From: Hyphomicrobiales bacterium
Lineage (GTDB): Bacteria; Pseudomonadota; Alphaproteobacteria; Rhizobiales; Beijerinckiaceae
Length of the DNA: 64,000 bases
Assembly (NCBI GenBank): GCA_028290285.1
Contig: JAQGKD010000114.1
Location: 1-64,000 of the forward strand
Reading direction: 5' to 3'
Every line of letters starts with the position of its first letter. Position 1 is the first letter of the stretch. The notes under the pieces were generated by a model. The model saw only the letters and a program-made list of their open reading frames with translations, did no database searches and was not told the DNA's origin. Shown here piece by piece: positions 9,752 through 30,919 of this stretch. Both the position numbers and the translations under genes were made by a program.

Positions 9752-9771
9752 GTTCGGCCTCGCGAGCTGGG

Positions 9772-10353: not shown

Positions 10354-10383
10354 GCTGTTTCCCCCCTCGTGTCTTTGATTTTT

Positions 10384-14149: not shown

Positions 14150-14207
14150 ACGAGAGACCAGAATGTGAAAGCTCACTCATGAAGAAGTGACAAAAGGGAC
14201 GGAAACC

Positions 14208-15182: not shown

Positions 15183-15240
15183 CACGCGAGAGATCACGAT
15201 TGCACTTAGGCACGTTCACCACTTCACAAGTGAGAGCTTC

Positions 15241-15666: not shown

Positions 15667-15673
15667 GGCCCCA

Positions 15674-15699
15674 AGACCGCGCGGGGCAACGCGCGGTCT
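15674..15699. terminator. Terminator hairpin between PPOX gene and convergent chrA
   Basis: Perfect 10-bp inverted repeat AGACCGCGCG and CGCGCGGTCT, 6-nt loop, starting 7 bp after the stop at 15666. No T-run follows. Confidence 0.65.
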
Positions 15700-15847
15700 G
15701 GACAAGCTCACCGGGCGTGAGGAATGCCTTGGGGACGGCCTCAGCGACGCGCAGGAAAAGCAGGTCCAAAGCAATCTGAAGTGGCCCGCTCGCTTGGGCG
15801 CACCGTGCGGCCCTGGCCTCGATCCCAGCTGGAGCGGACGCCTTGCA

Positions 15848-16384
15848 TCAATACCCGGCCAGATAGAGAACGTAGCAGAAGACGGCGCCGCCGAGCAGGA
15901 AGATGAAGGGGTGGATCTTCGCGCGCCAAGCCATGATCGCGGCCACCGCGAGGATGACGACAACCGACGTCATGTGCTCGGAGAGAGCGCGCGCCAGCGT
16001 GAGGACGCCCGCCAGGAGCAGGCCGGCGCCGACCGGCGCGAGTCCGGTTTCAAGCGCGGTATGCCATTTCTTGCCGCGATGAACGTTCCACACCGTGCCA
16101 ACCATGAAGACGAGCGTGGAAGAAGGAACGTAAAGAGCAAGCGTCGCGACAATCGCGCCCGCAAATCCCGCAATCTTCCAGCCGATCAGCGTGCCGAGAA
16201 GCGAGCCGGGCCCCGGCGTGACGCGCGAGACTGCGAACAGATCGAGGAATTCGCGCAGCGTGACCCAATGTTGCACGTCCACCGCCTGGTGCTGAAGCGG
16301 TGCATACATCGAAGCCGCTCCACCGAACGCGGCAAGCGAGATGGGCGCGAGTACCAGCACGAGTCTCAGCAAAACTTCGGTCAT
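15848..16384 (-). CDS. ChrA-family chromate transporter, second half-size subunit
   Basis: 178 aa, one ChrA half with about five membrane segments and the family motif TPGPGSLLGTLIGWK. Start at ATG 16384 with GAGAGG upstream; it begins one base after the stop of the other half gene. Half-size ChrA proteins work in pairs of opposite topology to expel chromate or carry other anions. No chrB regulator is next to it. Confidence 0.88.
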   Translation of the reverse strand: MTEVLLRLVLVLAPISLAAFGGAASMYAPLQHQAVDVQHWVTLREFLDLFAVSRVTPGPGSLLGTLIGWKIAGFAGAIVATLALYVPSSTLVFMVGTVWNVHRGKKWHTALETGLAPVGAGLLLAGVLTLARALSEHMTSVVVILAVAAIMAWRAKIHPFIFLLGGAVFCYVLYLAGY

Positions 16385-16385
16385 C

Positions 16386-16940
16386 TCAGCCTCTCCGCTC
16401 GCTGGCCCGGAACGCAAGACCCACGCTCACCGGCGCGACGACGCAGATGACGGCTAACAGCGGAAAACGAAATATGCCGACCGCGACGAAGGTGGCTGCC
16501 ATGACGAGCGCAGGAACAACACCTCGCGCGCTCAATCGCGCAGACGTCACGGACGTCCGCAGCAGCATGCCGACGGCAGCTGCTGCCGTGCCGAGCATCG
16601 CCTGCTGGAAGCCGGGCAGTCTCATCAGGGTCTGGTAGGTCATCGCAGCGATGATGATGGCGCAGAAGGGGCCCGTCATCATGGCTGTCAATGCGGTGAC
16701 GGCGCCCGCGACGCCGCGCAATCTTTGACCGACATAGACCGCCGAATTGGTTGCGTTAGCGCCCGGCATGATCTGGGCCAACGCGATGCCGGACAAGAAG
16801 TCCTCATGGCTCATCCATTTTCGAACCTCGACGACCTCACGTTGAATCCAGCCGGAAACCGCTCCGCCGAAACTGAAAAGACCAATTTCGAAGAACACGC
16901 GATAGATGGACTTCAAAGGCACGCGCGACGTTTGTTCCAT
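16386..16940 (-). CDS. ChrA-family chromate transporter, first half-size subunit
   Basis: 184 aa ChrA half: FSFGGAVSGWIQREVVE near the N-terminus and QIMPGANATNSAVYVGQ, the conserved membrane-entry motif. Multiple hydrophobic segments follow. It is directly upstream of the other half (1-bp gap), so the two are made together. Substrate could be chromate or an anionic metabolite. Confidence 0.88.
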   Translation of the reverse strand: MEQTSRVPLKSIYRVFFEIGLFSFGGAVSGWIQREVVEVRKWMSHEDFLSGIALAQIMPGANATNSAVYVGQRLRGVAGAVTALTAMMTGPFCAIIIAAMTYQTLMRLPGFQQAMLGTAAAAVGMLLRTSVTSARLSARGVVPALVMAATFVAVGIFRFPLLAVICVVAPVSVGLAFRASERRG

Positions 16941-17352
16941 GTGTCTCCCGTTTCTGTTTTGTCGCCTTACATAGATCGCTTGCAGTCGCCCCTATCGGCG
17001 GAGCGAATTATGTCGCTGCTGCTATCGGCACGCCGCTGGATTCTCTTCTCCTGTTGCTGACCGGAAGGGACGTGGACTGTAAAAACATCGGAGTACCCTT
17101 TACAAGCGTTCGATTTGCGCGCTCTTCGCCGGCGTGATCATCTTCGAACCAATGCGTATTTTCAATCCATAGGTAGATTTTCGCGGTGGCCGCCCATCGT
17201 TCTCCGGAAGACGCATGGCACTCGCCTGAGTGGGTTTATCAACTTTCCAGTTGACATGTTCGCGCCGCCCCCGTGGGATGAAAGCCAAGAATAGAGGGAT
17301 GGGAAGAATGCGTCGCAGCTGACGCTTCCCTCCGAAGCGGGAGGATGATGTC
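16941..17352. other. Intergenic region without a recognisable gene
   Basis: 412 bp between divergent chrA and the Gfo/Idh/MocA gene. No convincing coding region. It holds one clear dyad at 17239-17254 and the GGGAGGATGATG ribosome site for the downstream gene. Confidence 0.6.
17239..17254. promoter_or_regulatory. Inverted repeat upstream of the Gfo/Idh/MocA gene
   Basis: TCAACT, spacer TTCC, AGTTGA: a perfect 6-bp dyad in the shared promoter region of chrA and the dehydrogenase gene, 99 bp before the latter start. It differs from the GntR boxes further along. A regulator site is plausible but not identified. Confidence 0.35.
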
Positions 17353-18342
17353 ATGCTAAACGTCGCGATTGTCGGCCTTGGCTGGTGGGGCCAGACGCTC
17401 ACGCGAGTGATGGCCGGCAGCACGAGAATTCGTCCTGTACTCGGTATCGACCCTGACGACAACGCTCGCGCCGCCGCCAACTCTCTGGGCTTGCGCACCG
17501 CCGCACGTTTCGAGGATGCGCTCACGTCAGACGATGTCGATGCCATTCTTCTCTGCACTCCGCACAAGCAGCATGCGAGCCAGATCGTTGCGGCCGCCGC
17601 GGCAGGCAAGCATGTGTTTTGCGAAAAGCCGCTCTGCACGGACCCCACAGAAGCCGAAGAGGCTTTCACGGCCGTAGCGAAAGCCGGGCTTGTTCTTGGC
17701 ATCGGTCATGAGCGGCGTTTCGAACCGGCGATCATCGAAATGCGTCAACGCGCCAAGGCCGGAGAATTTGGCACTTTGCTGGCAATCGAGGGAAATTTCA
17801 GTCAGGACAAATTCCTGAAACTGCCTGCCGACAATTGGCGCCTGTCGCCGGTGCATGCGCCGGTGGGCCCTTTATCGGCAACTGGCATTCATCTCGTGGA
17901 TCTATCGATCTCGCTGTTCGGCATGCCGACCGAGACATGGGCGCGGCTTGCTACGCGAGCCACCCAATTCGGCAATGGCGACACGCTCTCCGTGACGCTC
18001 GGCTTCGAGAGCGGCAAAACGGCGTCCATCACCGCTATTCTCACCACGCCCTTCATGGGCCGCTTCGCCCTGTTCGGGTCCCAAGGCTGGATGGAAATTC
18101 GCGACCGCACACATCCCGAACAGCCGACAGGATGGGACATCACGACCACGCTGCGCGACAAGGAACCGGTCACTCGCTTCGACCCGCCGCATCTGGCAGT
18201 GCGCGACAATCTGGAGGCCTTCGCTACAGCTGCGAGCGGTGGCGCGGCCTATCCAGTAACGATCGAGGAAATGCGGGCAAATGTGCGGGCTTTCGCCGCT
18301 ATCTCCCGATCGGCTTTGTCAGGTCGAATAGAGAAGGTCTGA
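17353..18342 (+). CDS. Gfo/Idh/MocA-family NAD(P)-dependent oxidoreductase
   Basis: 329 aa. The Rossmann domain starts VAIVGLGWWGQ, with AILLCTPHKQHASQI and the conserved CEKPL near residue 95; the substrate domain contains the family His in ATGIHLVDLS. These enzymes oxidise hydroxyl groups of sugars, inositols and related compounds. RBS GGGAGGATGATG. The carboxymuconolactone decarboxylase-like gene follows after 86 bp on the same strand. Confidence 0.9.
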   Translation: MLNVAIVGLGWWGQTLTRVMAGSTRIRPVLGIDPDDNARAAANSLGLRTAARFEDALTSDDVDAILLCTPHKQHASQIVAAAAAGKHVFCEKPLCTDPTEAEEAFTAVAKAGLVLGIGHERRFEPAIIEMRQRAKAGEFGTLLAIEGNFSQDKFLKLPADNWRLSPVHAPVGPLSATGIHLVDLSISLFGMPTETWARLATRATQFGNGDTLSVTLGFESGKTASITAILTTPFMGRFALFGSQGWMEIRDRTHPEQPTGWDITTTLRDKEPVTRFDPPHLAVRDNLEAFATAASGGAAYPVTIEEMRANVRAFAAISRSALSGRIEKV

Positions 18343-18428
18343 GGAGAGGCGCTTGATTTCGTCGGCGACCTGTTCATCATCATTTGTGCCGCCGAACATT
18401 GCAGCCCAATGGCTGAAGGGAGAAAGAC

Positions 18429-18953
18429 TTGGCTCGACTGCCCTATGCCGAACCCGATACCGACGCACGCAAGGACGTCGCCGCACGTGTCGTCGCCGAG
18501 CGTGGCTCGCTGTTGCATCTCTACAGCATGCTCCTGCACAGCGCACCGGTTGCGGAGGGCTGGCTCACCTATCTCACCGCGATCCGGCAGAAAGCGAAAC
18601 TGCCGGGCGATCTTCGCGAAATGGTCATCATGCGTGTCGCCCATCTCAACGGCGCGAGCTATGAGGCCGACCAGCACAGGCCCATCGCTTTGAAGGAAGG
18701 CATGAGCGAACCCCAGCTCGACTCGCTGCAGCATTGGGAGACAGCCAGCTGCTTCTCACCCATGCAGCGCGCCGTACTCGCCTATACGGATACGATGACG
18801 CGCGATGTGCAGGTGCCCGACAATGTCTTCGAGAACGTCGCGAACCTGTTTTCACCGGAAATGATGGTTGAACTTACAGCGACAGTCGCGGCCTACAATA
18901 TGGTCTCGCGCTTCCTGGAAGCTCTCCAGATCCACTCGCACGACAAGGACTGA
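18429..18953 (+). CDS. Carboxymuconolactone decarboxylase / AhpD-fold family protein
   Basis: 174 aa with a TTG start (MARLPYAEPDTDA) preceded by GAAGGGAGAAAG. All-helical CMD fold: LRQKAKL-type segment (IRQKAKLPGDLREMVIM), then ASYEADQHRPIA in place of the CxxC of peroxidatic AhpD relatives. No cysteine pair is present, so peroxidase activity is unlikely; a decarboxylase or isomerase-like role is more probable. Shares transcription direction with the Gfo/Idh gene. Confidence 0.85.
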   Translation: MARLPYAEPDTDARKDVAARVVAERGSLLHLYSMLLHSAPVAEGWLTYLTAIRQKAKLPGDLREMVIMRVAHLNGASYEADQHRPIALKEGMSEPQLDSLQHWETASCFSPMQRAVLAYTDTMTRDVQVPDNVFENVANLFSPEMMVELTATVAAYNMVSRFLEALQIHSHDKD

Positions 18954-19519: not shown

Positions 19520-19531
19520 ATTGTTGACAAC
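19520..19531 (+). promoter_or_regulatory. GntR box 1, upstream of the ABC transporter operon
   Basis: ATTGTTGACAAC, nearly identical to the boxes at 24285 and 27906. It embeds TTGACA (19524-19529), a -35-like hexamer, 65 nt before the ABC ATPase start; a weak TACGCT lies 18 bp further. FCD-GntR regulators bind TTGT-N2-ACAA dyads, so repression by promoter occlusion is inferred. Confidence 0.65.
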
Positions 19532-19594
19532 TTTCGAAATTGAAGCGTACGCTCCACCTAACGGGTCGCTGAACCCGCTCGAAGGGGAGAAAAC

Positions 19595-20656
19595 ATGAGC
19601 TTCCTCGAACTGAGCGGGCTCTCCAAGCGCTTTGGGCCACTGACGGTCGTTGATGACGTCAGCCTGTCTGTCGAGCGAGGCCATGTCGTGTGTTTGCTGG
19701 GGCCCTCGGGCTGCGGCAAGACAACGACGCTTCGGCTGATAGCCGGTTTCACCACACCGGACGCTGGAGACATACGCATCGACGGCAAGGTCATTTCATC
19801 GAAGCGCGCGAGCGTGCCGCCCGAGCTTCGGCAAATGTCCATGATCTTTCAGAGCTACGCGCTGTGGCCGCACATGACGGTCCGCGAAAACGTCGCCTAC
19901 GGCCTTCAATTGCGCAAACTGCCGAAAGAAAAGGTTGTTTCTCTCGTCAACAATATCCTGAATACGACCCAGCTTTCGGTTCTGGCGGAACGCTACCCCG
20001 GCGAACTTTCAGGCGGCCAGCAGCAGCGGGTCTCCCTCGCGCGCGCGCTTGTAGTTGAGCCGCAGACTCTTCTCCTCGACGAGCCGCTCTCGAACCTCGA
20101 CAGCAATCTGCGCGAGGAGATGCGGTTCGAGATCCGGCGGCTTCACGACGCCTATCGTTATACGACCATCTACGTCACCCACGACCAATCCGAGGCCATG
20201 ACCACCGCTGACGTGATCGTCATCATGAACAAGGGACGCATCGAGCAGATCGGGTCCCCCGAGGACATCTACGAGCGCCCCGCTTCCGAATTCGTTGCAC
20301 GCTTCATGGGTGGAGCGAACATCCTCACGGGTCACGCGCTCGACGGCCACACTGTGGATTGCGGCGGTCTCAAGCTCCGATGCGCCAACACAAGCAGTGC
20401 GGCAGGGAGCGCCATCGCGGTCTCAATTCGCCAGCACACGATCGCCGTGACGACGCAGCGTCCAGTGGACGAAATGAACTGGGCCGCGGGCACCGTCGTG
20501 CGAAGCGTCTACCTCGGCGCGCACCGCGATTACCTGATCGAGCTTGCATCCGGTGAGCGGATCCGCGCGGTCACGTCGACGAGCAACCCCGTTGAAAATG
20601 GCCAGGCCGTCTGGGCGCATCTGCCACCCGAATTCTGCAGAGTCCTCACCCGTTAG
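19595..20656 (+). CDS. ABC transporter ATPase, Fe3+/polyamine/organic-solute type
   Basis: 353 aa. Walker A GPSGCGKTT (about residue 37), Q-loop FQSYALW, signature LSGGQQQRVSLARAL, Walker B LLLDEPLSNLD, and a C-terminal TOBE-like domain after residue 240. This is the FbpC/PotA group. GAAGGGGAG precedes the ATG. First gene of a three-gene importer (ATPase, SBP, permease) controlled by GntR box 1. The subfamily is not iron-specific; neighbours suggest an organic acid. Confidence 0.93.
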   Translation: MSFLELSGLSKRFGPLTVVDDVSLSVERGHVVCLLGPSGCGKTTTLRLIAGFTTPDAGDIRIDGKVISSKRASVPPELRQMSMIFQSYALWPHMTVRENVAYGLQLRKLPKEKVVSLVNNILNTTQLSVLAERYPGELSGGQQQRVSLARALVVEPQTLLLDEPLSNLDSNLREEMRFEIRRLHDAYRYTTIYVTHDQSEAMTTADVIVIMNKGRIEQIGSPEDIYERPASEFVARFMGGANILTGHALDGHTVDCGGLKLRCANTSSAAGSAIAVSIRQHTIAVTTQRPVDEMNWAAGTVVRSVYLGAHRDYLIELASGERIRAVTSTSNPVENGQAVWAHLPPEFCRVLTR

Positions 20657-20666
20657 GAGAGCTGTC

Positions 20667-21713
20667 ATGGATCGCCGCGCATTTCTCGCTACCCTGCTCC
20701 TGTCTACGACGCTCGCAGCAATGCCTGCCTTTTCCGCGCCGGTTGTGACCTACGAGGTGACGCCGGAGCTGATCGCTGCTGCCAAGGCGGAAGGCACGGT
20801 GGTGTTCTATTCCTCGCTCGACGTCGCGGTTGCCGAGAAGCTGGCAGCGGCGTTCGAGCAGAAATATCCGGGCATCAAGACCAAGGTGGAGCGCGCCGGG
20901 TCCGAACGCGTCTTCCAGCGCGTCGGTCAGGAATACGGCAGCAACATTCACAACGTCGATGTCGCCGAGACATCGGACGCCGTGCATTTCGTGGTGTTCA
21001 AGCGCAACGGCTGGATCGCGCAATTCCAGCCTGCGGAAGTTGCGAAACTGTGGCCGGAAACGGCACGAGACGCGGATGGCTATTACGCAGCCTTCCGGGC
21101 GCATCTCTCCGTGATCGGATACAACACCAAGCAGGTCAAGGCGGAAGACGCACCGAAAAGCTTCGCCGATCTCCTCCTTCCCAAATGGAAGGGCCGGATG
21201 GTCAAGGCGCATCCCGGTTACAGCGGCACGATCATGACCGCCACCCACGTCCTGAGCCAGACGCTGGGATGGCCTTATTTCGAGAAACTCGGGCAGCAGC
21301 GCGTCATGCAGGTGCAATCGTCGACCGAGCCGCCCAAGAAACTCGCGCAAGGCGAGCGCTCCGTCGAGGCCGACGGCAACGAATATAATATGTTCATGCT
21401 CAAGGAATCGGGCGTTCCGGTCGAAGTCGTTTACGCGACCGAGGGCACGCCGATCACGATCGGAAATGCGGCTATCTTCAAGGATGCGCCTCATCCCAAT
21501 GCCGCGAAGCTGTTTTACGCCTTCATGTTCAGCAAGGACGCGCAGCAACTGACGAGCGATGTCGGCGGTTTGCGCTCGTTCCACCCGGGCGTTGTCGAAA
21601 AGCCCGACCGGACGCCCTTGTCGAAGATCAAGCTGCTCTATTCAGACCCGCAGAAGCTCGACGGCGAAATCGAAACCATCAAGAAGAAATACGAAGAATA
21701 TTTCGGCACCTGA
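20667..21713 (+). CDS. ABC transporter periplasmic solute-binding protein (FbpA-like family)
   Basis: 348 aa from ATG 20667 (TTAGGAGAGCTGTC upstream). A signal peptide ends at PAFSA. The mature start TYEVTPELIAAAKAEGTVVFYSSLD is typical of extracellular solute-binding family 1/13 proteins that serve Fe3+, phosphonate or organic-acid ABC importers. It overlaps nothing but follows the ATPase by 10 bp. The hairpin at 21739-21765 separates it from the permease, which would favour higher SBP levels. Confidence 0.92.
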   Translation: MDRRAFLATLLLSTTLAAMPAFSAPVVTYEVTPELIAAAKAEGTVVFYSSLDVAVAEKLAAAFEQKYPGIKTKVERAGSERVFQRVGQEYGSNIHNVDVAETSDAVHFVVFKRNGWIAQFQPAEVAKLWPETARDADGYYAAFRAHLSVIGYNTKQVKAEDAPKSFADLLLPKWKGRMVKAHPGYSGTIMTATHVLSQTLGWPYFEKLGQQRVMQVQSSTEPPKKLAQGERSVEADGNEYNMFMLKESGVPVEVVYATEGTPITIGNAAIFKDAPHPNAAKLFYAFMFSKDAQQLTSDVGGLRSFHPGVVEKPDRTPLSKIKLLYSDPQKLDGEIETIKKKYEEYFGT

Positions 21714-21738
21714 CCGGCTGACGTCCTGATGCAGGCGC

Positions 21739-21765
21739 GAATGCGGGGGAAGGCTCCCCGCATTC
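21739..21765 (+). promoter_or_regulatory. Intra-operon hairpin between binding protein and permease genes
   Basis: GAATGCGGGG and CCCCGCATTC, a perfect 10-bp stem with a 7-nt loop, 25 bp after the SBP stop. Followed by ATTTCAT. In many ABC operons such a stem protects the SBP message or attenuates permease expression. Confidence 0.6.
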
Positions 21766-21790
21766 ATTTCATATGAGGGGCGACACGATC

Positions 21791-23518
21791 ATGAGCGCGG
21801 CATCAGATTTTCGTATTCCTGCCCGCCGGGCTTCTTCGATCGATTGGTCGAAGCCGGTCTTCATGGCACTGGTCGCTTTGCTCGCCGCGCTCGTTTTGCT
21901 GCCGCTCTCGTGGCTCGTCTATTTCGCCGTCACCGATCAGGCGGGGAAGCTGACATTCGCGAACTTTGTGGCGATGGTGACGGATCCCACGCTGCGGCGT
22001 CCGTTCCTTCTCGCCATCGGCATGTCCCTCAGCGTTGGCGCGCTCTCTTGCATCATTGCGACGCCGCTGGCCTGGTTTGTGGCGCGAACCGATATGCCGG
22101 GGCGATCCTTCGTGCGGGTCTTCGTGACCGCGTCCTTCGTCACGCCGCCCTTCCTGGGCGCCATCGCGTGGGAGATTCTGGCGGCGCCCAACAGCGGCAT
22201 TCTCAACGTTCTCTACCGGTCGCTCTTCGGCCTCGAGCCCTACGACCACATCGTCGATATCTACACGATGCCGGGCCTCGTCTTCGCCATCTCCTGCTAC
22301 ACGTTTCCCTATGTTTTCACGCTGGTCAGCAATGCGCTTGATCGTGTGCCGAGCGACCTCGAGGAGGCGTCGGCCATCCAGGGCGCGAGCCTGCGCACCA
22401 CCCTGCGGCGGATCACGATCCCTCTCGTACTCCCGGCCATGCTGGCGGGGTCGCTGATCGCGATCCTGCAGGCACTGACGATGTTCGGCTCTCCGGCTAT
22501 CCTAGCTTTGCCGGCCGGCTTCCACGTGATTACGACAAAGATCTGGAGCCTGTTCCAGTATCCGGCAAAACCGAACCTCGCGGCGGCGATCTCGATGCCG
22601 CTGCTGATGTTCACGATCCTGCTGCTCTGGACGCAGCGCTCCATTCTGGGGCGCCGGGGCTATACGACGCTGGGCGCCAAGAGCGGTGTGCCGCGCCTGA
22701 CCGAGCTTGGACACTGGCGCTGGGCTGCATGGGCGTTCACGGCTCTCATTCTGCTGCTGACCGTCGTTCTGCCTTATCTCGCGCTGATCCAGACTGCTTT
22801 GACACGCACCGTCGCCGAGCCGCTGAGCTGGGACAGTTTCACCCTGCACCACATCCGCTTTGTATTCTTCGAGTTCTCGGCGACGTCGCTGGCGATGCGC
22901 AATACCTTCCTGCTCGGCCTGATGACGGCGACAATCGGGACCGGCCTGGCCCTGGTGATCTCCTATGTCGCTTCGCGCAATGTCGTGAAAGGGGGATGGA
23001 TGCTGGGTTATCTGGCGACCATTCCGGTCGCTATTCCCGGTATCGTGCTCGGCGTCGGGCTGTTTCTCGCCTATTCGAATTCGGTGCTGCCGCTGTATGG
23101 AACAATCTGGATCCTGCTGATCGCGTTCCTGACGATCGAAATGCCCGCCGCCTACCAGCAATTGTCATCGGCGTTCCGAAGCGTCCACGTCGAACTGGAA
23201 GAAGCGAGCCGTATCCTTGGTGCGACGCGCATGGAGACGCTGCGCACGATCACGGCCCCCATCCTGCGCTCGAACGTCATTGCCACCTGGTGCTTCGTCT
23301 TTATCGGGACGATCCGCGAATTGTCCGCGATGATCCTCCTGACGACGGCGGACACCAAGCTGGTGTCGGTGATCATCTACGATCTGAACGAAAGCGGCGA
23401 TCTCGGCGCAATTTCCGTACTGGGGCTCATGCTGCTGGCCATTTCATTCGCGATCATCACGGTCGCCAACCGGCTGCCTCTGTTCGGGGGGCCGAAGCTG
23501 ACAAGCCTGCGAGGCTGA
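21791..23518 (+). CDS. ABC transporter permease, fused double-length FbpB-type
   Basis: 575 aa; start at MSAASDFRIPARR because GAGGGG lies just upstream of that ATG. About 12 membrane helices in two repeated halves. Each half carries an EAA loop for the ATPase: EEASAIQGASLRTTLRR and EEASRILGATRMETLRT. Typical of Fe3+-type importers in which two permeases are fused. Third gene of the box-1 operon. Confidence 0.92.
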   Translation: MSAASDFRIPARRASSIDWSKPVFMALVALLAALVLLPLSWLVYFAVTDQAGKLTFANFVAMVTDPTLRRPFLLAIGMSLSVGALSCIIATPLAWFVARTDMPGRSFVRVFVTASFVTPPFLGAIAWEILAAPNSGILNVLYRSLFGLEPYDHIVDIYTMPGLVFAISCYTFPYVFTLVSNALDRVPSDLEEASAIQGASLRTTLRRITIPLVLPAMLAGSLIAILQALTMFGSPAILALPAGFHVITTKIWSLFQYPAKPNLAAAISMPLLMFTILLLWTQRSILGRRGYTTLGAKSGVPRLTELGHWRWAAWAFTALILLLTVVLPYLALIQTALTRTVAEPLSWDSFTLHHIRFVFFEFSATSLAMRNTFLLGLMTATIGTGLALVISYVASRNVVKGGWMLGYLATIPVAIPGIVLGVGLFLAYSNSVLPLYGTIWILLIAFLTIEMPAAYQQLSSAFRSVHVELEEASRILGATRMETLRTITAPILRSNVIATWCFVFIGTIRELSAMILLTTADTKLVSVIIYDLNESGDLGAISVLGLMLLAISFAIITVANRLPLFGGPKLTSLRG

Positions 23519-23525
23519 GCGCGGT

Positions 23526-24221
23526 TCAGCCGTCTTGCGCCGGATAGTGACCGACGGGGCCGAACAGCGCCTCTCGGCTTGTCAGAACGTGTCTCTCGAG
23601 TTCCGACGAAGCGCCGGCAACGTCATGGGCTGCGAGGCGCGCGAGAATGGCCTTGTGCTCGTCATTGGAGATTTGCATGCGGCCGGGCAGATCAAGGGTG
23701 CGTCGCCGGAACAGATGCATCTCGCGATGCAGCGCCATGCATTCGGAGTTGAGACGCTCGTTGCCGCTGAACCGGACGATCTCCTCGTGGAAGCGCAGGT
23801 TGTTGGGATAAAACAGGTTGAGATCGTTGGATTCGACGGCGCGCTGCATGATGTCGACGTATTGCTGTAATTCAGCGATCTGCTGCGCCGTGATGATGGG
23901 CGCGAGTATCCGCCCCGCCAGGGCGTAGAGGACCGCGCGAATTTCATAGAGTTCGGCGGCCTCCCGGCTCTCCAGTTGGCGGATAAAGACCCCGCGATTG
24001 ACGATGACCGTGACGAGCCCGCTCTGCTCTAGGCCACGGCACGCCTCCCTGATCGGTCCACGGCTGACACCCAGCCGCGCCGCGAGGGCGTTTTCGTTCA
24101 GCCTGTCACCCGCCGACAGCTCACCATGCTCCACCATGCGTTCCAGTTCGCGGCGGATCAGGGTCGTCATCGACTCAGTGCGGCGTTTGTGGAGCGCGGC
24201 CCCAGCATCATTCATGGTCAT
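23526..24221 (-). CDS. GntR-family regulator, FCD subfamily
   Basis: 231 aa. The winged helix at about residues 18-85 has LNENALAARLGVSRGPIREACRGLEQSGLV split over two helices; the FCD ligand domain (about 90-215) has NLRFHEEIVRFSGN and SNDEHKAILARLA with family His/Asp metal positions. Convergent with the permease gene (7-bp gap) and divergent from mmgE/prpD, with a GntR box between. Most likely the local repressor for the three boxed promoters, with an organic acid as inducer. The exact start is uncertain; no good ribosome site is visible. Confidence 0.9.
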   Translation of the reverse strand: MTMNDAGAALHKRRTESMTTLIRRELERMVEHGELSAGDRLNENALAARLGVSRGPIREACRGLEQSGLVTVIVNRGVFIRQLESREAAELYEIRAVLYALAGRILAPIITAQQIAELQQYVDIMQRAVESNDLNLFYPNNLRFHEEIVRFSGNERLNSECMALHREMHLFRRRTLDLPGRMQISNDEHKAILARLAAHDVAGASSELERHVLTSREALFGPVGHYPAQDG

Positions 24222-24284
24222 GATGGCACTGCATAGCGTCGCTTGCGGTCTAATTCCAAGCGGAAAAAATGCTCACTCCTTATT

Positions 24285-24296
24285 ATTGTTGACAAT
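24285..24296. promoter_or_regulatory. GntR box 2, between gntR and the MmgE/PrpD gene
   Basis: ATTGTTGACAAT, a 5-bp dyad ATTGT-TG-ACAAT. TTGACA (24289-24294) points to the MmgE/PrpD gene, 50 nt before its ATG. The distance to gntR (64 bp) also allows autoregulation. Confidence 0.7.
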
Positions 24297-24344
24297 CAGC
24301 AAAAAGCAATCGACTTCTCAGTTGGAAAAAACGGGGAGTTGATC

Positions 24345-25742
24345 ATGGCAGCCGGGACGGACCTCACGAAACATGTCGCGGATTTCATCTGCCGCACGGA
24401 GCCCTCGGACCTGCCGTCCTCGGTCGTCGAACTCGGCAAGAAATCGATTCTGGACGGAATCGGTCTGGCCCTGTCAGGCAGCATCGCTGCGAGCGGTGAG
24501 CTGGTGCGGCGGCACCTCGCAGACCTCGGCCTCAAGGAAGGGGCCGCGACCGTCATCGGCAGCCCTTTCAAGGTGGTGCCCCGCTTCGCAGCGTTCGCCA
24601 ACGGCGTCGGCATCCATGCCGACGATTACGACGACACGCAACTCGCCGTCGCCAAGGACCGCGTCTATGGCCTGCTGACCCACCCGACCGCGCCCGCCCT
24701 GCCCGCAGCACTGGCCATGGGTGAGGCGATGAATGCGGATGGCCGCAGCGTCATGCTCGCCTATCATCTGGGCGTCGAGGTCGAATGCAAGATCGCGGAG
24801 GCGATCAACCCGCGCCATTACCAGACCGGATTTCACGCGACCGCGACCTGCGGGACCTTCGCGGCGGCGGCGGCCAGTGCCCGGCTGATGGGGCTCGACC
24901 GTAACGCCACCGCCAGAGCCCTTTCCATCGCAGGTAGCCAGTCGGCCGGCCTGCGCGAAAATTTCGGCACGATGACCAAGCCCTTCCATGCCGGGCGTTC
25001 GTCGGAGAGCGGTGTCGCCGCTGCGCAGTTCGCGGGTTACGGCTGGACAGCCGCCGACACGATCCTGGAAGCACCGCGCGGGTTCTTCATGGCTGCGGGT
25101 GGCGGCTACGATGTCACCGCCATAGAAGGCAAGCTTGGTGCGCCCTGGACCTTTGCGGAGCCCGGCATTTCGATCAAGCCGCATCCGTCAGGCTCGCTGA
25201 CGCATCCGGGCATGACGGAGATGCTTCGCCTCATCGGGCAACACTCGATCCGCGCCGCCGATGTCGTCCGAGTTCGTGTCGGCACGAACCACAACATGCC
25301 AAACGCGCTCATCCACCATCGCCCAAAGAACGAATTGCAGGCAAAGTTCTCGATGGAGTTCTGCATGGCCATCCTGCTTCTCGATGGCAAAGCAGGTCTT
25401 CCAGAATTTACGGACGAGGTCGTGGAGCGCGCGGACGTTCGCGCGATGATCGAGAAGATCGATTTCGTCGTGGACGATGAGGCCGAAAAGGCCGGCTATG
25501 ACAAGATGACCACGATCATCGACATCGATCTCGCCGACGGCCGGCGCATTTCCGGACGCGCCGATTTCGGCAAGGGAAGCCCCAGCAATCCCATGAGCTT
25601 CGAGGAGGTCGCCGCGAAGTTCCACGAATGCGCCGACTACGCGAAATTCGACCGGTCCAAGGCTGACGCCGTAGTCGCCATGGTGGCGGATTTCGAACGG
25701 CTCAAGTCGATCGATACGCTCATGGCGCTGCTGCGCCCTTGA
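24345..25742 (+). CDS. MmgE/PrpD-family protein
   Basis: 465 aa from ATG 24345, preceded by GGGGAGTTGATC. Family markers: LDGIGLALSGS, HADDYDDTQ, GFHATATCGTFAAAAAS, GTMTKPFHAGRSSESGV and KPHPSG. The family contains 2-methylcitrate dehydratase, cis-aconitate decarboxylase and iminodisuccinate epimerase, all acting on polycarboxylates. It heads the box-2 unit, with the IPMDH-like gene downstream (start 41 bp later). A dehydratase, isomerase or epimerase step on a di- or tricarboxylic acid is inferred. Confidence 0.9.
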   Translation: MAAGTDLTKHVADFICRTEPSDLPSSVVELGKKSILDGIGLALSGSIAASGELVRRHLADLGLKEGAATVIGSPFKVVPRFAAFANGVGIHADDYDDTQLAVAKDRVYGLLTHPTAPALPAALAMGEAMNADGRSVMLAYHLGVEVECKIAEAINPRHYQTGFHATATCGTFAAAAASARLMGLDRNATARALSIAGSQSAGLRENFGTMTKPFHAGRSSESGVAAAQFAGYGWTAADTILEAPRGFFMAAGGGYDVTAIEGKLGAPWTFAEPGISIKPHPSGSLTHPGMTEMLRLIGQHSIRAADVVRVRVGTNHNMPNALIHHRPKNELQAKFSMEFCMAILLLDGKAGLPEFTDEVVERADVRAMIEKIDFVVDDEAEKAGYDKMTTIIDIDLADGRRISGRADFGKGSPSNPMSFEEVAAKFHECADYAKFDRSKADAVVAMVADFERLKSIDTLMALLRP

Positions 25743-25783
25743 TTGAATTGGGTCCGGGTTACATCCACAACTGGAAAGATATC

Positions 25784-26860
25784 ATGTCGCCTTTCACAAT
25801 CGGTGTCCTCAACGGCGATGACATCGGGCACGAGATCGTGCCCGCAGCCGTGCGCGTGGCGCAGGCGGCCGCCGCGCTGCACGGCGTGTCCATCGACTGG
25901 CGGCCCTTGCCTATCGGGCGCAGCGCGCTCGACAGCCACGGGTCGACAATGCCCGAGGGAACGCTGGAGACATTGGGCGCGCTCGACGGGTTTGTGCTCG
26001 GACCCATCGGCCATCAGGCCTATCCAAAGGGCCCAGGCGCGATCAATCCCCATCCAATCCTGCGCAAGCATTTCGACCTGTTCGCCAATGTCCGGCCGAC
26101 CCGCTCCTATCCGGGCATCGGCTGTATCTATGACGACATCGACCTCGTGATCGTGCGTGAGAACAATGAGGGATTCCAGCCCGACCGCAACGTCGTCGCA
26201 GGGTCCGGAGAATTCCGGCCCAACGACGACCTGACGATTTCCGTTCGCGTCATCTCGCGCAAGGGCAGCCGGAAAGTCGCCAAGGCGGCGCTCGATATTG
26301 CCCGCAGCCGGCGCAAGAAATTGACGCTGGTACACAAGAACACGGTGTTCAAGCTCGGCTGCGGCATGTTCGTCGAGGAATGCTACAAGGCCGCCGCCGA
26401 TTATCCCGATGTCACGGTCGACGAAGTGATCGTCGACACGTTCGCCATGCGTCTTGTGCGTGACCCGCAGACCTTCGATACGGTCGTCACCACGAACATG
26501 TTCGGCGACATCCTGACCGACGAAGCGGCAGGCCTCGTCGGCGGACTGGGAATGGCGCCTGGCCTGTGCATCGGTGAGGGAAACATCGCGATGGCGCAGG
26601 CGACCCACGGATCCGCCCCCGACATCGCCGGCAAGGGCATCGCCAATCCCTATGCGATGATTTACTCGACCGCGATGCTGCTCGATTTCCTGGGCCGCAG
26701 CCGGAATGTGCCGGCATCGGTGGCCGCGGCGAGATCCATTGAGCGCGCGCTCTGCGTCGCGCTGGCAGACCCGGCGACCCGCACGCGCGATATTCGCGGG
26801 ACGGCGGGCACGCAGGGCATGACGGATGCCATCGTGCGCGCGCTGGATCGAACCAGCTGA
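25784..26860 (+). CDS. Isocitrate/isopropylmalate dehydrogenase-family protein
   Basis: 358 aa; start at MSPFTIGVLNGDDIGHEI, with GGAAAG upstream. Markers of the beta-decarboxylating dehydrogenases: VRENNEGF, VHKNTVFKLGCGMFV (catalytic Lys region), NMFGDILTDEAAGLVGGLG and HGSAPDIAGKGIANPYA. The N-terminal motif is GDDIGHE instead of GDGIG.E. It acts on 2- or 3-hydroxy-diacids with NAD+. It differs from the more canonical paralogue at 28993-30084, so the two probably handle different intermediates of the same pathway. Confidence 0.9.
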   Translation: MSPFTIGVLNGDDIGHEIVPAAVRVAQAAAALHGVSIDWRPLPIGRSALDSHGSTMPEGTLETLGALDGFVLGPIGHQAYPKGPGAINPHPILRKHFDLFANVRPTRSYPGIGCIYDDIDLVIVRENNEGFQPDRNVVAGSGEFRPNDDLTISVRVISRKGSRKVAKAALDIARSRRKKLTLVHKNTVFKLGCGMFVEECYKAAADYPDVTVDEVIVDTFAMRLVRDPQTFDTVVTTNMFGDILTDEAAGLVGGLGMAPGLCIGEGNIAMAQATHGSAPDIAGKGIANPYAMIYSTAMLLDFLGRSRNVPASVAAARSIERALCVALADPATRTRDIRGTAGTQGMTDAIVRALDRTS

Positions 26861-26879
26861 GCGCGCGCAGAATGGGGCC

Positions 26880-27851
26880 TCAGGGGGCAGCCTCAACGTA
26901 GGGCGTCGGCTCGCTCCCTGAGAAGAAGGGATAAAACGCGTCAAAGACCAGATCGGGTCGGTGCTCCGCGGGATAATGTCCAGTGGGAATCGACCAGCCA
27001 CGCAGGTCGTTCGCCCACGGCGCCCAGGCATCCATGACCTTGAAGTGCCGCCCGCAGTGGCTATTCGAACCCCACATCACCAGCACGGGGCACCTGATCT
27101 TCTTCTGCCCCAGGTCCGCCGTGTCCATCTCGAGGTCGAGCGTGACCGTCGCGCGGTAATCCTCGCATACCGAATGGATCTGCTCGGGCGTCGTGCAGCG
27201 CGCATATTCGGCCAAAGCTTCCGGTGTGAAGATCTCGAGGCCCACGCCCTTCTTGTTGAGCTTGTAGCGGATGTAATAATCCAGATCGCCGCAGATCAGG
27301 CGTTCAGGAAACGGCTCCTTCTGGGCCATGAAGAACCAGTGATAGGATTCGAGACCCCAGCCAAGCGTGATCTTCGTCAGCACTTCGTGCGTCGGCACGA
27401 TGTCGAGCGACGCAAATGCCGTCACGCGATCCGGCTGGTCGAGCGCCATGCGGAAGCCGACGCGCGCGCCGCGGTCATGTCCCGCGACGCCGAACTTTTG
27501 AAAGCCGAGCGCGTCCATGACATCGAACATGTCTTCGCCCATCGAGCGGAACGTGTAGGCCGAATGATCGCCCCCGCCGACAGGTTTTGAGCTGTCGCCA
27601 TAGCCGCGAAGATCGGGCACGACGACGGTGAAGGACTGGGCGAGCGTCGGCGCCATCTTGTGCCAGCTCACCAACGTCAGGGGATTGCCATGGATGAGCA
27701 GCAGCGGCGGACCGTTGCCCGCGATCGCCACATTGATCTCGGCGCCGCGCGTCTTGATGCGACGCCGCTCGAAGCCCTTCATCAATTCGGGACCATGCGG
27801 AATCAGCGGCGGACGTTCATTGGCGCGATCGGCACCCGGGCGAAGATCCAT
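26880..27851 (-). CDS. Alpha/beta hydrolase of haloacetate dehalogenase type
   Basis: 323 aa, start at ATG 27851 behind TGGAGGACCGCC. Residues resembling fluoroacetate dehalogenases: the nucleophile in AGHDRGARVGFRMAL (Asp, with two Arg nearby), ESYHWFFMAQKEPFPERLI region with the Trp, and the catalytic His in GHYPAEHRPD. These features support dehalogenase or epoxide/ester hydrolase activity. Convergent with the IPMDH-like gene and divergent from pdxA, with GntR box 3 between; its box-embedded TTGACA points toward this gene. Confidence 0.88.
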   Translation of the reverse strand: MDLRPGADRANERPPLIPHGPELMKGFERRRIKTRGAEINVAIAGNGPPLLLIHGNPLTLVSWHKMAPTLAQSFTVVVPDLRGYGDSSKPVGGGDHSAYTFRSMGEDMFDVMDALGFQKFGVAGHDRGARVGFRMALDQPDRVTAFASLDIVPTHEVLTKITLGWGLESYHWFFMAQKEPFPERLICGDLDYYIRYKLNKKGVGLEIFTPEALAEYARCTTPEQIHSVCEDYRATVTLDLEMDTADLGQKKIRCPVLVMWGSNSHCGRHFKVMDAWAPWANDLRGWSIPTGHYPAEHRPDLVFDAFYPFFSGSEPTPYVEAAP

Positions 27852-27905
27852 CGGCGGTCCTCCAGATTGTTTTAGTCAGCCTGTCATTTGCTGCTGGGAT
27901 AGCAT

Positions 27906-27917
27906 ATTGTCAACAAT
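27906..27917. promoter_or_regulatory. GntR box 3, between the hydrolase and PdxA-like genes
   Basis: ATTGTCAACAAT, the exact reverse complement of box 2. Read on the minus strand it embeds TTGACA (27913-27908), 56 nt before the hydrolase ATG at 27851; it is also 56 nt before the pdxA-like ATG at 27974. A shared operator for both divergent genes is inferred. Confidence 0.7.
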
Positions 27918-27973
27918 AAGCAATGAATGCTAGCGTCCCCGCATGGCCGAAACCCTCCAGAGAGGCGACGCGA

Positions 27974-28996
27974 ATGGATGAAGAGACCGGGGAGCTTCCC
28001 CGCATCGCATTGCTGTTTGGCGATTGCACGGGCATTGGGCCTGAAATCGCCGCGCGGGTGCTGGCAGAACGCAACCTCAGCGACCGCGCGCGGCTCGTCG
28101 CGGTGGGCGATGCGCGCGTGCTGGAAAAGGGCATGCGCGATGCACAGGTTTCCTTCCCGTGGCGTCGCGTCGAACGCGTCTCCGACATCGATTGGTCCGA
28201 CCCCACGGTTCCCCTGATCGATCTCGAAAACATCGATCCCGCCGAGGTCGGCTCCGGCGCGATTTCAGCGCATTCCGGCCGCATCACCGGCGAGACCTTG
28301 CGTCATGCGATCTGGATGGCCAAGCGCGGCGAGGTCGATGCCGTCACCTTCGCACCACTCAACAAAGCCGCGATGTATGCGGGCGGATTCAAGTTTCCCG
28401 ACGAGCACAAGTTCTTCGCCAATGTGCTCGGCCACAATTCCTATTTCTCCGAGATGAACGTCCTCGACCCACACTGGATGTCGCGCGTCACCTCGCACGT
28501 GTCGCTGCGTGAAGCGCTCGACCTCATCGACGAACAGTCCATCACGGACGCCATCGAACTGGTCGACCGCATGATGAAGCGCGCGGGTATCGAGAAGCCG
28601 CGCATCGCAGTCGCTGCGCTCAACCCACATGCGGGAGAAAATGGGCTGTTCGGCCGGGATGAAATCGAATTGATCCGGCCCACGGTCGAGAAGGTGGCCG
28701 CGACCGGCATCGACTGCACGGGACCATTCCCGTCCGACACGGTCTACATTCGCGCCTTCGCCGGCGAGTTCGACAGCGTGGTCTCGATGTACCACGACCA
28801 GGGTCAGATCGCGACCAAGATGAAGGGCTTCAATCGCGGCGTGACGATCACGGCGGGCCTCGACGTGCTGTTCACGACGCCTGCCCACGGCACGGCCTTC
28901 GATATCGTGGGCAAGGGCGTCGCATCCACCGGCGCGCTCGAAAGCGCGCTCGCGCTAGCGGCGAAACTCGCCCCGAGAAATGGCATCCGCGCATGA
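27974..28996 (+). CDS. PdxA-family 4-hydroxythreonine-4-phosphate dehydrogenase-like protein
   Basis: 340 aa; start at MDEETGELPRIAL, behind AGAGAGGCG and at a sensible distance from box 3. PdxA features: GDCTGIGPEIAARVL, TSHVSLREAL, ALNPHAGENGLFGRDE, and YHDQGQIATKMKGFNRG with HGTAFDIVGKG supplying metal ligands. The family also includes D-threonate/erythronate-4-phosphate and aromatic dihydrodiol dehydrogenases (TphB). No DUF1537 kinase or dioxygenase is in the window, so the substrate is open. Overlaps the next gene by ATGA. Confidence 0.9.
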   Translation: MDEETGELPRIALLFGDCTGIGPEIAARVLAERNLSDRARLVAVGDARVLEKGMRDAQVSFPWRRVERVSDIDWSDPTVPLIDLENIDPAEVGSGAISAHSGRITGETLRHAIWMAKRGEVDAVTFAPLNKAAMYAGGFKFPDEHKFFANVLGHNSYFSEMNVLDPHWMSRVTSHVSLREALDLIDEQSITDAIELVDRMMKRAGIEKPRIAVAALNPHAGENGLFGRDEIELIRPTVEKVAATGIDCTGPFPSDTVYIRAFAGEFDSVVSMYHDQGQIATKMKGFNRGVTITAGLDVLFTTPAHGTAFDIVGKGVASTGALESALALAAKLAPRNGIRA

Positions 28997-30084
28997 GTTC
29001 TCCGATCTCCAACCGCCGTCACCGTGTCGGCGTCATCCCGGGCGACGGCATCGGCCAAGAAGTCATCCCTGTCGGGATGGCCGTCGCGGAGGCAGCCGGA
29101 CGAACGTTCGGCTTCACCATGGACTGGACCAGTTTCGACTGGAGCTGCGAACGTTTCGCAAAGACGGGACGAATGATGCCCGAAGACGGCATCGAGCAGG
29201 TCAAGGCCTTCGACGCGCTTTACCTTGGCGCGGTCGGCTTCCCCGGCGTTCCCGATCACATCTCGCTCTGGGGCCTGCTCATCCCGCTGCGGCGCGAGCT
29301 CAAGCAATATGTCAACGTTCGCCCTGTCCGGCTGCTGAAGGGCATCGCGTCGCCCCTGGTGGGGCGTGGCCAGAAGGACATTGATTTCATCGTCGTGCGC
29401 GAGAACAACGAGGGTGAATATTCCGAGATCGGCGGCCGCATCTTCCGTGGCACGGATGATGAAATGGCCATGCAGGAGTCGATCTTCACCAAGCGCGGTG
29501 TAGACCGCGTGCTCGACTATGCGTTCAGGCTGGCCCAAACGCGGCCACGCAAGCACGTGACGTCGGCGACGAAATCAAACGGCATCGTCCACACCATGCC
29601 GTTCTGGGACGAGCGCTTCGAGGCTGCGAAAGCACGCTACCCGGATGTTGGAGCCGCGCAGTTTCACATCGACATCCTGACCGCGCATTTCGTGCTCCAC
29701 CCTGACTGGTTCGATGTCGTCGTTGGCTCGAACCTGTTCGGCGATATCCTCTCCGATCTCGGCCCCGCCATCGCCGGCTCGATCGGCATCGCACCTTCGG
29801 CGAATCTGAACCCGGAGCGTCAATATCCCTCCATGTTCGAACCCGTCCACGGCTCCGCGCCTGACATCGCCGGCAAGGGTATCGCCAATCCCATCGCCGC
29901 CATTTGGTCCGTCGCCATGATGCTGGAGCATCTCGGCGAAACAGCCGCCGCGCTGGCTATCGAGCAGGCGATGGAGGACGTTCTCGTCGATCCGGACTCG
30001 CGCACCGCCGACCTTGGGGGGCCTGCCGACACACGCCGATGTGCCGATGCCGTGCTGGCTGCGCTGAACCGCCTCTCTACGTGA
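28993..30084 (+). CDS. Tartrate dehydrogenase-like (IPMDH family) protein
   Basis: 363 aa. Canonical dehydrogenase motifs: VIPGDGIGQEV, VRENNEGEYSEIGG, TKSNGIVHTMPFW, SNLFGDILSDLGP and FEPVHGSAPDIAGKG. TtuC-type enzymes oxidise and decarboxylate tartrate, malate and related acids. Start ATG overlaps the pdxA-like stop (ATGA), so the pair is co-translated. Second IPMDH-family member in the same region; ends convergently, overlapping the nitroreductase gene by 8 bp. Confidence 0.9.
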   Translation: MSSPISNRRHRVGVIPGDGIGQEVIPVGMAVAEAAGRTFGFTMDWTSFDWSCERFAKTGRMMPEDGIEQVKAFDALYLGAVGFPGVPDHISLWGLLIPLRRELKQYVNVRPVRLLKGIASPLVGRGQKDIDFIVVRENNEGEYSEIGGRIFRGTDDEMAMQESIFTKRGVDRVLDYAFRLAQTRPRKHVTSATKSNGIVHTMPFWDERFEAAKARYPDVGAAQFHIDILTAHFVLHPDWFDVVVGSNLFGDILSDLGPAIAGSIGIAPSANLNPERQYPSMFEPVHGSAPDIAGKGIANPIAAIWSVAMMLEHLGETAAALAIEQAMEDVLVDPDSRTADLGGPADTRRCADAVLAALNRLST

Positions 30085-30919
30085 GGTCGAATTTCTGACG
30101 GCGCAGGTAGGCGCCGAAGGCGGTCCGCAGTGGCACGGCGTATTGGCGCGCCTTGTCCTCTGACCAGCCATAGGCTTCGGCGTTCCCCCAGACGTCAGGA
30201 TCGCGTTGACGGCGCGCGGGCTGAAGGGCCTCGCGCCTGCAGTCGTAGGCCTCGATGTCCTGCCTTGCGTGTCCGTCCGCAAAGCGATCGGTGTGAACAT
30301 TGACCGACAGTGGCAATCGCGGGGTGATATGACCGTTCTCGCTTGGCCAGCCCAGGCAAAAGCCGGCATAAGGCGCAACCTTTTCGGGCAACTCTAGCCA
30401 TTCCGAAATGAGTTCGGCGTGGTTGCGGATCTCGCTGACCGGACAGCCGCCAAGCCCTGCCATATCCACGCTCGCCTGGAACCAGGCCAGAGCAATCGCC
30501 GCATCACCGACGGCATTGAAAAGCAGGTCGCAATGATCGTTGGGGAAAGGCTTTCCGCGCCACTCCGCAATCTGCGGAAGCCGTCGCCCGTTCAAACAGA
30601 AAATGACCATGGCCGGAGCTGTCAGCACCCATGGATATTGCGGCATGAGCGCCCCGATTCGCCGACGCAGGTCGGGATCCTGGATGATCACGATATCGCG
30701 CTGCTGAAGGTCGCTTTTAGAGGGCGCCGACATCGCGCATGCGCAAAGGACTCTCAACAACTCCGGGTCAACAGCACGATCGAGAAAGTCCCGGTGGACA
30801 CGATGCCCGGCCAGACAGGAAAGTCTGTCGGCCGCTTCGTCCGACAGAGGGATTTCGAAATCCTCTCCGAAACGCTCGACCAGGGCCTGCTGCATGTCTC
30901 GGATCGAATTCGGCTTCAT
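30077..30919 (-). CDS. Nitroreductase-family flavoprotein
   Basis: 280 aa with the nitroreductase fold: HRVHRDFLDRAVDPELLRVLC, SAPSKSDLQQRDIVII, an AGLGGCPVS segment and CLGWPSENGHITPRLPL for FMN binding. NAD(P)H-dependent reduction of nitro or quinone compounds is the family activity. Its 3' end overlaps the tartrate-dehydrogenase-like gene. It may be unrelated to the boxed pathway, as it has its own direction and lies behind brnA. Confidence 0.88.
   Translation of the reverse strand: MKPNSIRDMQQALVERFGEDFEIPLSDEAADRLSCLAGHRVHRDFLDRAVDPELLRVLCACAMSAPSKSDLQQRDIVIIQDPDLRRRIGALMPQYPWVLTAPAMVIFCLNGRRLPQIAEWRGKPFPNDHCDLLFNAVGDAAIALAWFQASVDMAGLGGCPVSEIRNHAELISEWLELPEKVAPYAGFCLGWPSENGHITPRLPLSVNVHTDRFADGHARQDIEAYDCRREALQPARRQRDPDVWGNAEAYGWSEDKARQYAVPLRTAFGAYLRRQKFDLT

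Follow-up and report, generated by a model that had tools for sequence, protein, structure and literature searches.

Background

According to the accessible part of PMC4494728, GntR-type regulators of the FadR subfamily have carboxylic acids as effectors and recognise the consensus TKGT/ACMA, with a spacing of 2 nucleotides (nt) for GntR, HpxS, HypR, MdcY, PrpR and UxuR, while in GntR divergons a single site near the middle serves both sides. Among the enzymes that concern us here, the characterised MmgE/PrpD proteins have substrates that share a 1,4-dicarboxylate backbone, and the epimerases of this family possess an extra tyrosine (PMC12290011, in the part of that source available to us). 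Here we compare with these systems a locus of a Hyphomicrobiales bacterium, situated at positions 19520-30084 of JAQGKD010000114.1 within an analysed stretch of 64,000 nt ("the window"). The locus holds genes for an ATP-binding cassette (ABC) importer (abcA, sbp, perm), an FCD-type GntR regulator (gntR), an MmgE/PrpD protein (mmgE), three dehydrogenases (ipm1, pdxA, tdh) and a dehalogenase-like hydrolase (abh), together with three near-identical palindromic boxes. From comparative sequence data we consider it probable that these elements form a carboxylate-inducible catabolic regulon, in which an FCD-GntR regulator acts through three boxes on five transcription units for the import and breakdown of an acid.

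The boxes and their candidate regulator

The sequence-only reading of this DNA had reported boxes of the form TTGT-N2-ACAA at 19520, 24285 and 27906, and this observation is confirmed. They are the only exact matches to TTGTNNACAA in the window (n=3; mean 0.35 and maximum 2 in 100 shuffles). If one mismatch is allowed, ATTGTNNACAAT occurs five times against 0.66 expected, the two further sites (38979 and 60803) lying outside the cluster. All three boxes fall into the approximately 597 non-coding nt of the 10,685 nt between 19400 and 30084, given the gene starts adopted here. The earlier distances of 65, 50 and 56 nt are likewise correct when counted from the end of the hexamer TTGACA to the ATG at 19595 (+), 24345 (+) and 27851 (-), respectively. 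The genes at 12361-18950 (a thiamine pyrophosphate enzyme, TctC, a PNPOx-like protein, two chromate transporters, Gfo/Idh/MocA and CMD) have no box and were left out of the regulon.

The predicted regulator matches the Pfam models GntR (58.1 bits) and FCD (88.3 bits), both over the cutoff, and combines a GntR helix-turn-helix with an FCD domain. The boxes fit the TKGT/ACMA palindrome, whose GT and AC are 2-3 nt apart, and they do so at the regulator's own promoter as well as at target promoters. Boxes 2 and 3 lie near the midpoints of their divergons, which is the arrangement that PMC4494728, as far as accessible, gives for single divergon sites. Because both are placed in divergons, the boxes would serve five units, gntR and pdxA-tdh included. 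The genes that the sequence-only reading linked (importer, gntR, MmgE/PrpD, two dehydrogenases, dehalogenase-like hydrolase and PdxA) form five predicted transcription units with nine genes, abcA-sbp-perm, gntR, mmgE-ipm1, abh and pdxA-tdh, as judged from strand and spacing.

Conservation and specificity of the boxes

Three sets of related loci (numbered L) were compared. A scan with the GntR protein yielded 24 loci, of which 12 (L027-L038) hold the whole cluster or part of it; with the window this gives 13 loci, from records of Bosea, Microvirga, Alsobacter and Hyphomicrobiales/Rhizobiales, and of at least four genera. A box with at most one mismatch lies 5' of abcA (13/13), gntR (13/13), mmgE (12/12) and abh (12/12), and none lies 5' of ipm1, sbp or perm. 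Counted by intergenic position the box is present at 38 of 38 places in the 13 loci (abcA 13/13, gntR/mmgE 13/13, abh/pdxA 12/12). Most of the other 12 loci of the scan (L039-L050) contribute no more than a gntR relative, and an exact core box is absent from all 12.

The second set was searched with ipm1 to avoid selection on the regulator. Relatives with at least 72% identity were found in seven other genomes among 397 of the order and in one more among 398 of the phylum, and in all eight loci (L085-L091, L093) a box is located at most 320 nt 5' of some cluster gene. Next to L091, a further box lies 25 nt before abh (L119). Of 17 genomes with weaker ipm1 matches the context was examined in four (L092, L094-L096; homologues of 47-56% without the cluster), and no box is found 5' there; the single one-mismatch match in L094 lies inside a predicted gene. 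A third set, obtained with mmgE from 385 genomes of the class, added seven loci. In one of them (L130) the cluster is present and abh, abcA and mmgE each have an exact box; another (L129), which is cut short, has a one-mismatch box at mmgE. Four loci with an mmgE relative of 67-71% and without the other cluster enzymes (L131-L134) lack the box. L135, from an AT-rich genome of 1.2 Mb, has a 61% mmgE relative whose neighbourhood includes TcuA, an ipm1-like gene and genes for a methylisocitrate-lyase-like protein and an AbrB-type membrane protein; the one-mismatch box about 90 nt before this relative was not counted as support, since 2.5 such sites are expected there by chance.

The box is rare outside these contexts. 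The 20 cluster loci examined, which total 384 kb, contain 61 sites that deviate by at most one mismatch, compared with 3.0 predicted by order-1 shuffles. A scan of eight cluster genomes of our choice (46.7 Mb) found 26 exact ATTGTYRACAAT sites, 18 of them inside the fetched cluster loci (about 160 kb, or 0.34% of the DNA), and the reversed control pattern yields a single site across the eight genomes together. Two more exact sites are at most 2.5 kb from cluster loci, one before a TctC-like gene (L119) and one at an operon that looks similar by eye (L118). Among the six sites outside the cluster neighbourhood, two are inside predicted genes and four, in three regions, stand beside or near GntR-type genes as seen by eye; these four resemble operators of further regulators belonging to this class and were rejected as extra targets. 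The window's own genome has five exact ATTGTNNACAAT sites, two of them in the cluster; the three others yield no clear extra target, since two fall within predicted genes and the third precedes, at a distance of about 360 nt, what was predicted by eye to be a transporter gene. The cluster itself is patchily distributed, with gntR at 73% identity or more in three of 37 genomes of the window's genus and ipm1 at 72% or more in eight of 397 genomes of the order, the own genome included in both counts. This pattern fits an accessory catabolism.

Evaluation of the regulon

The sequence-only reading had named boxless or scattered orthologous clusters as the outcome that would speak against it. Because the orthologous clusters keep genes and boxes together, the regulon passes this test, and the claim that one FCD-GntR-type box links importer, regulator and catabolic genes is supported by their conservation together. 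One type of regulator thus very probably controls, via three sites, both an uptake system and enzymes of organic-acid breakdown.

Several observations weigh against this interpretation. The first set was found with gntR, so that the presence of gntR there results from selection, and the compared loci are related, so that the counts are not independent events. The box precedes tdh in only two of six loci of this set, and no tdh turned up in the stretches fetched for L029, L030, L032, L033, L036 and L037. Two loci without an exact core box combine gntR with other cluster genes (L046: gntR 49%, pdxA 63%, abh 50%; L040: gntR 53%, abh 50%). In the second set only L085 and L093 of the eight loci keep boxes at abcA, abh and mmgE, the others being rearranged; L086 has no box 5' of mmgE, ipm1 or pdxA, and L087 and L089 hold one-mismatch sites only. 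L133 of the third set has mmgE (67%), a tripartite transporter and GntR (38%) without the box. Several relatives have beside abh a rhodanese-like gene that the window lacks, a second regulator (38-49% identity) accompanies the same box, and no family model names the substrate of the cluster. Finally, the 43 sites that could be oriented (15 at abcA, 14 at mmgE, 14 at abh) were chosen at no more than one mismatch, which makes their constant core partly a product of selection, and no convincing -10 hexamer or spacing stands out among them. The weight of the evidence lies in the presence of a site each time and in the behaviour of its two free centre letters.

We propose that the FCD-type GntR protein would bind as a dimer, at each of the three boxes, to the palindrome ATTGTTGACAAT, in which 2 nt separate the half-sites TTGT and ACAA, and would thereby control abcA-sbp-perm, gntR, mmgE-ipm1, abh and pdxA-tdh. 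Most likely it would act by repression, obstructing RNA polymerase at a -35 region that overlaps the box until a carboxylic acid binds to the FCD domain and releases the protein. In the presumed order of reactions the acid would be imported, epimerised next to a carboxylate by the MmgE protein and then broken down by the beta-decarboxylating dehydrogenases ipm1, tdh and pdxA, while the dehalogenase-like hydrolase abh may open or remove a substituent on the alpha carbon.

A paralogous regulator

The GntR protein of this cluster is likely to bind the boxes, although not exclusively. The own genome harbours on contig C131 (L052, G000; about 5571-10742) an operon with a TctC gene (recognised by Pfam), genes that resemble TctB and TctA by eye, an MmgE protein (34%) and a second GntR (45%). 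At 76 nt before the tctC start lies the box ACTGTTAACAAT, which has one mismatch, and the operon is possibly a sister regulon. A tentative alternative would therefore accept the boxes as operators and regard the paralogous GntR as their main binder, or have both proteins share them, with the two uptake operons forming one larger regulon. Apart from the box at tctC, this alternative draws on L029-L033, L035, L036 and L038, where a second gntR (40-44%) lies with a second mmgE next to the cluster, on the same boxes with regulators only 43-45% identical in L085, L093 and L130, and on an exact box before gntR in three loci of the window's genus (L014, L016, L017) whose fetched stretch has only the paralogous gntR-mmgE pair. 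The cluster GntR and its paralogue share an identical stretch, SRGPIREA. Against it stands the box at the own promoter of the close gntR orthologue in all 13 loci of the first set with the window, the usual sign of autoregulation, though this box is shared with mmgE. Because the same box also accompanies the paralogue, either protein or both may be the binder.

Catabolic enzymes and the substrate

Returning to the regulon with the cluster GntR as the likely binder, its enzymes point to a class of substrate. Seven residues of mmgE (H91, D94, H113, Y159, H164, K212, K278) align with H85, D88, H99, Y145, H150, K198 and K266 of iminodisuccinate (IDS) epimerase, all seven being identical, and they are invariant in 19 aligned sequences including that of the window; the active-site list is that of PMC12290011, in its accessible part. 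The residue that aligns with the second-base tyrosine is Met in cis-aconitate decarboxylase (12VT) and Tyr in a B. subtilis homologue without known function. Against the 2-methylcitrate dehydratase model PrpD (TIGR02330) mmgE scores 19.6 bits, below the cutoff of 458.

The sequence-only reading had recognised two dehydrogenases as isopropylmalate-dehydrogenase-like, which can be refined: tdh exceeds the curated cutoff of tartrate dehydrogenase (TIGR02089; 536 vs 470.4 bits) and has the tartrate dehydrogenase/decarboxylase 3FLK as its nearest solved relative, while ipm1 stays under this cutoff with 230.8 bits. The latter reaches no listed NCBIfam cutoff and is closest, among solved structures, to homoisocitrate and isocitrate dehydrogenases, so that we regard it as an uncharacterised enzyme of that kind. 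The tdh-like proteins of L086 and L093 also reach the tartrate dehydrogenase cutoff. The score of pdxA against PdxA of vitamin B6 synthesis (TIGR00557) is 263.1 bits, below the cutoff of 290.35, and its nearest solved structures are 4JQP, 2HI1 and 6E85, the last two of the PdxA2 type. L093 contains two enolase-superfamily genes, nearest to models of acid-sugar dehydratases and below their cutoff, and a similar pair was seen by eye in L130. Weaker ipm1 and mmgE relatives occur near the tricarballylate dehydrogenase TcuA (L096, L135), with TcuB near in L096.

The epimerase-type site of MmgE, the tartrate dehydrogenase cutoff reached by tdh, and the tricarboxylate-type transporters that replace the importer in related clusters (see below) suggest that the substrate is probably a substituted 1,4-dicarboxylate, with a substituent at position 2 or 3 (tartrate-, isocitrate- or aconitate-like), or a tricarboxylate.

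A more specific alternative concerns the hydrolase. The nearest solved relative of abh is 3QYJ, followed by fluoroacetate dehalogenases such as 9C9F and 3R3U, and epoxide hydrolases were matched too. Its residues D126, R127, R130, D150, H171, W172, Y232 and H292 are invariant in 15 aligned sequences, that of the window included, and they correspond to what we take to be the fluoroacetate dehalogenase pattern (Asp nucleophile, His, Asp, two Arg and a His-Trp-Tyr halide site), so that abh would qualify as a candidate member by its residues. Accordingly, a halogenated or epoxidised di- or tricarboxylate could be the substrate, which abh would convert into a malate- or tartrate-like acid for oxidation by tdh, ipm1 and pdxA. 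Besides the residue pattern, two points favour this idea: in 12 of 12 loci abh stands at this type of box, and the regulon includes a tartrate dehydrogenase. We nevertheless find it doubtful: the residues are no proof of halide release, as the match to epoxide hydrolases illustrates, and no halogenated substrate is evident. Moreover, in a related hydrolase Ser replaces the Asp, and this protein is active as an esterase, a dehalogenase and an N-deformylase (PMC13230308, in the part accessible). A shade more doubtful still is the wider proposition of a patchy alphaproteobacterial pathway, not described before, in which an FCD-GntR would have under its control an enzyme of the dehalogenase or epoxide-hydrolase type along with an epimerase and three beta-decarboxylating dehydrogenases, and for which a halogenated or epoxidised di- or tricarboxylic acid would be a natural growth substrate.

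Importer

The best NCBIfam matches of four cluster genes are phosphonate models, namely PhnR for gntR (phnR_burk, its closest named model; 200.8 bits, cutoff 271.5), PhnT2 for abcA (351.3, 457.7), PhnS2 for sbp (84.3, 392.75) and PhnU2 for perm (178.5, 593.25). It is nonetheless very unlikely that the cluster serves a phosphonate such as 2-aminoethylphosphonate, since none of the four cutoffs is reached, phosphonate-cleaving families are missing among the Pfam matches of the cluster genes, and four related clusters have tricarboxylate-type transporters instead of the ABC importer. In these (L086, L088, L089, L091) a tripartite-tricarboxylate-type transporter was recognised by eye (TctC by Pfam for L086), no ABC importer is present in the fetched stretch, and an AbrB-type membrane protein is found (confirmed for L086 and L088).

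Structure of the sites

Over the 43 oriented sites the core is nearly constant and the flanks carry less than 0.9 bit. The centre letters, which were free in the selection, read TG toward the gene in 37 sites and CG in six. The six are the abh sites of L029-L034 (five Bosea loci and one Rhizobiales locus) and read TTGTCGACAA; TTGACA is lost and the palindrome is kept, from which it follows that the palindrome can persist without this hexamer. At the remaining sites the orientation of TTGACA toward the gene, a claim of the sequence-only reading that held in 37 of 43, fits an overlap with a -35 element.

That the boxes are only the -35 element (TTGACA) of strong promoters with no regulator bound is scarcely credible, because, although the hexamer faces abcA, mmgE or abh in those 37 sites by centre letters outside the selection, the left arm beyond it is kept as well (A in 43, T in 36, T in 43 and G in 43 of 43, within the limits that the rule of at most one mismatch sets to variation), the six deviating abh sites drop TTGACA yet keep the palindrome, no -10 partner stands out, and the rarity and clustering of the box in whole genomes are unlike those of a general promoter element.

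Gene arrangement

Table 1. Candidate operators and genes of the predicted regulon, in window coordinates.
Feature	Position	Strand	Assignment and basis
Box 1 ATTGTTGACAAC	19520..19531	none	Operator candidate for abcA-sbp-perm; box with at most one mismatch 5' of abcA in 13/13 loci
abcA	19595..20656	+	ABC importer ATPase (Fe3+/2-aminoethylphosphonate type); Pfam ABC_tran and TOBE_2
sbp	20667..21713	+	Periplasmic solute-binding protein; Pfam SBP_bac_6, 60.7 bits
perm	21791..23518	+	Fused permease; two BPD_transp_1 stretches (Pfam)
gntR	23526..24221	-	FCD-type GntR regulator; Pfam GntR and FCD
Box 2 ATTGTTGACAAT	24285..24296	none	gntR/mmgE divergon; centre 7.5 nt off the midpoint
mmgE	24345..25742	+	MmgE/PrpD protein with epimerase-type active site; Pfam; nearest solved structure IDS-epimerase
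ipm1	25784..26860	+	Isocitrate/isopropylmalate-dehydrogenase family, specificity not assigned; Pfam Iso_dh, 286.4 bits
abh	26880..27851	-	Fluoroacetate-dehalogenase-like alpha/beta hydrolase; nearest solved structure 3QYJ
Box 3 ATTGTCAACAAT	27906..27917	none	abh/pdxA divergon; centre 1 nt off the midpoint if pdxA starts at 27974
pdxA	27974..28996	+	PdxA2-like dehydrogenase; Pfam PdxA, 289.3 bits
tdh	28993..30084	+	Tartrate dehydrogenase family enzyme; TIGR02089, 536 bits

For three genes the preferred start lies within a longer open reading frame, which opens at 20544 for sbp, at 21773 for perm and at 27923, 5 nt after box 3, for pdxA. The pdxA start of Table 1 is favoured because the box would sit inside the extrapolated longer pdxA start in L029-L034. 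The start of tdh overlaps the stop of pdxA. The nearest solved relatives of sbp are Fe3+-type binding proteins.

A nitroreductase-family gene without a box (30077-30919, -) adjoins tdh; in L027, and in L057, which is the same stretch of the same genome, it adjoins the cluster at 84% identity. A sulfurtransferase-like protein of the rhodanese kind, about 525 residues long, follows abh, as seen by eye, in L029, L031, L034, L035 and L038 (in these five between abh and ipm1) and in L086, whose copy contains three Rhodanese stretches (Pfam). At the corresponding place L085 (7441-8936) has a pyridoxal-phosphate-dependent threonine-dehydratase-like gene and a predicted Lrp/AsnC-like regulator gene, the latter by eye. 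The window also includes two adjacent half-size chromate transporter genes (15848-16940, -; Pfam Chromate_transp), and two genes that resemble them by eye are situated beyond abcA in L085.

Comparison with known systems

The kind of regulon is known, and the gene set is apparently undescribed. We found no description of the gene set or its substrate in the open literature searched, in line with the sequence-only reading, which knew of no described pathway with this set. The locus presents a well-bounded predicted regulon of nine genes, whose candidate operator lends itself to direct testing in the relatives from Bosea, Microvirga and Alsobacter too. It groups families that often have no known natural substrate (MmgE/PrpD, PdxA-like, fluoroacetate-dehalogenase-like and isocitrate-dehydrogenase-like proteins), and the inducer, once identified, would make it easier to work out the functions of all these families together.

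The locus resembles the FadR-subfamily (FCD) regulons of PrpR, MdcY, HypR, HpxS, UxuR and GntR, as represented in the accessible part of PMC4494728, in its TTGT/ACAA half-sites with a 2-nt centre, in a site near the middle of the divergon and at the regulator's own promoter, and in the FCD domain. It differs from them in its gene set and in a regulator that remains under the cutoff of every NCBIfam model listed for it.

Among the enzymes, mmgE shares with iminodisuccinate epimerase and methylsuccinate isomerase the seven active-site residues, including the second-base tyrosine (PMC12290011, same part), but is distant in sequence and accompanied by other operon genes; an invariant stretch before its catalytic His has no counterpart in the aligned IDS-epimerase. 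A likeness to tricarballylate utilisation (TcuAB) is seen in the weaker ipm1 and mmgE relatives located close to TcuA (L096, L135) and TcuB (L096), whereas none of the nine cluster genes is TcuA or TcuB. The hydrolase abh has the Asp-His-Asp triad, the two Arg and the His-Trp-Tyr set of fluoroacetate dehalogenase (3R3U, 9C9F), an activity for which it is a candidate, yet it shares its box with enzymes of presumed dicarboxylate breakdown. Likewise, tdh reaches the curated cutoff of the tartrate dehydrogenase/decarboxylase system (3FLK, TIGR02089), but here its companions, which have the same kind of candidate operator, are PdxA, MmgE and a dehalogenase-like hydrolase.

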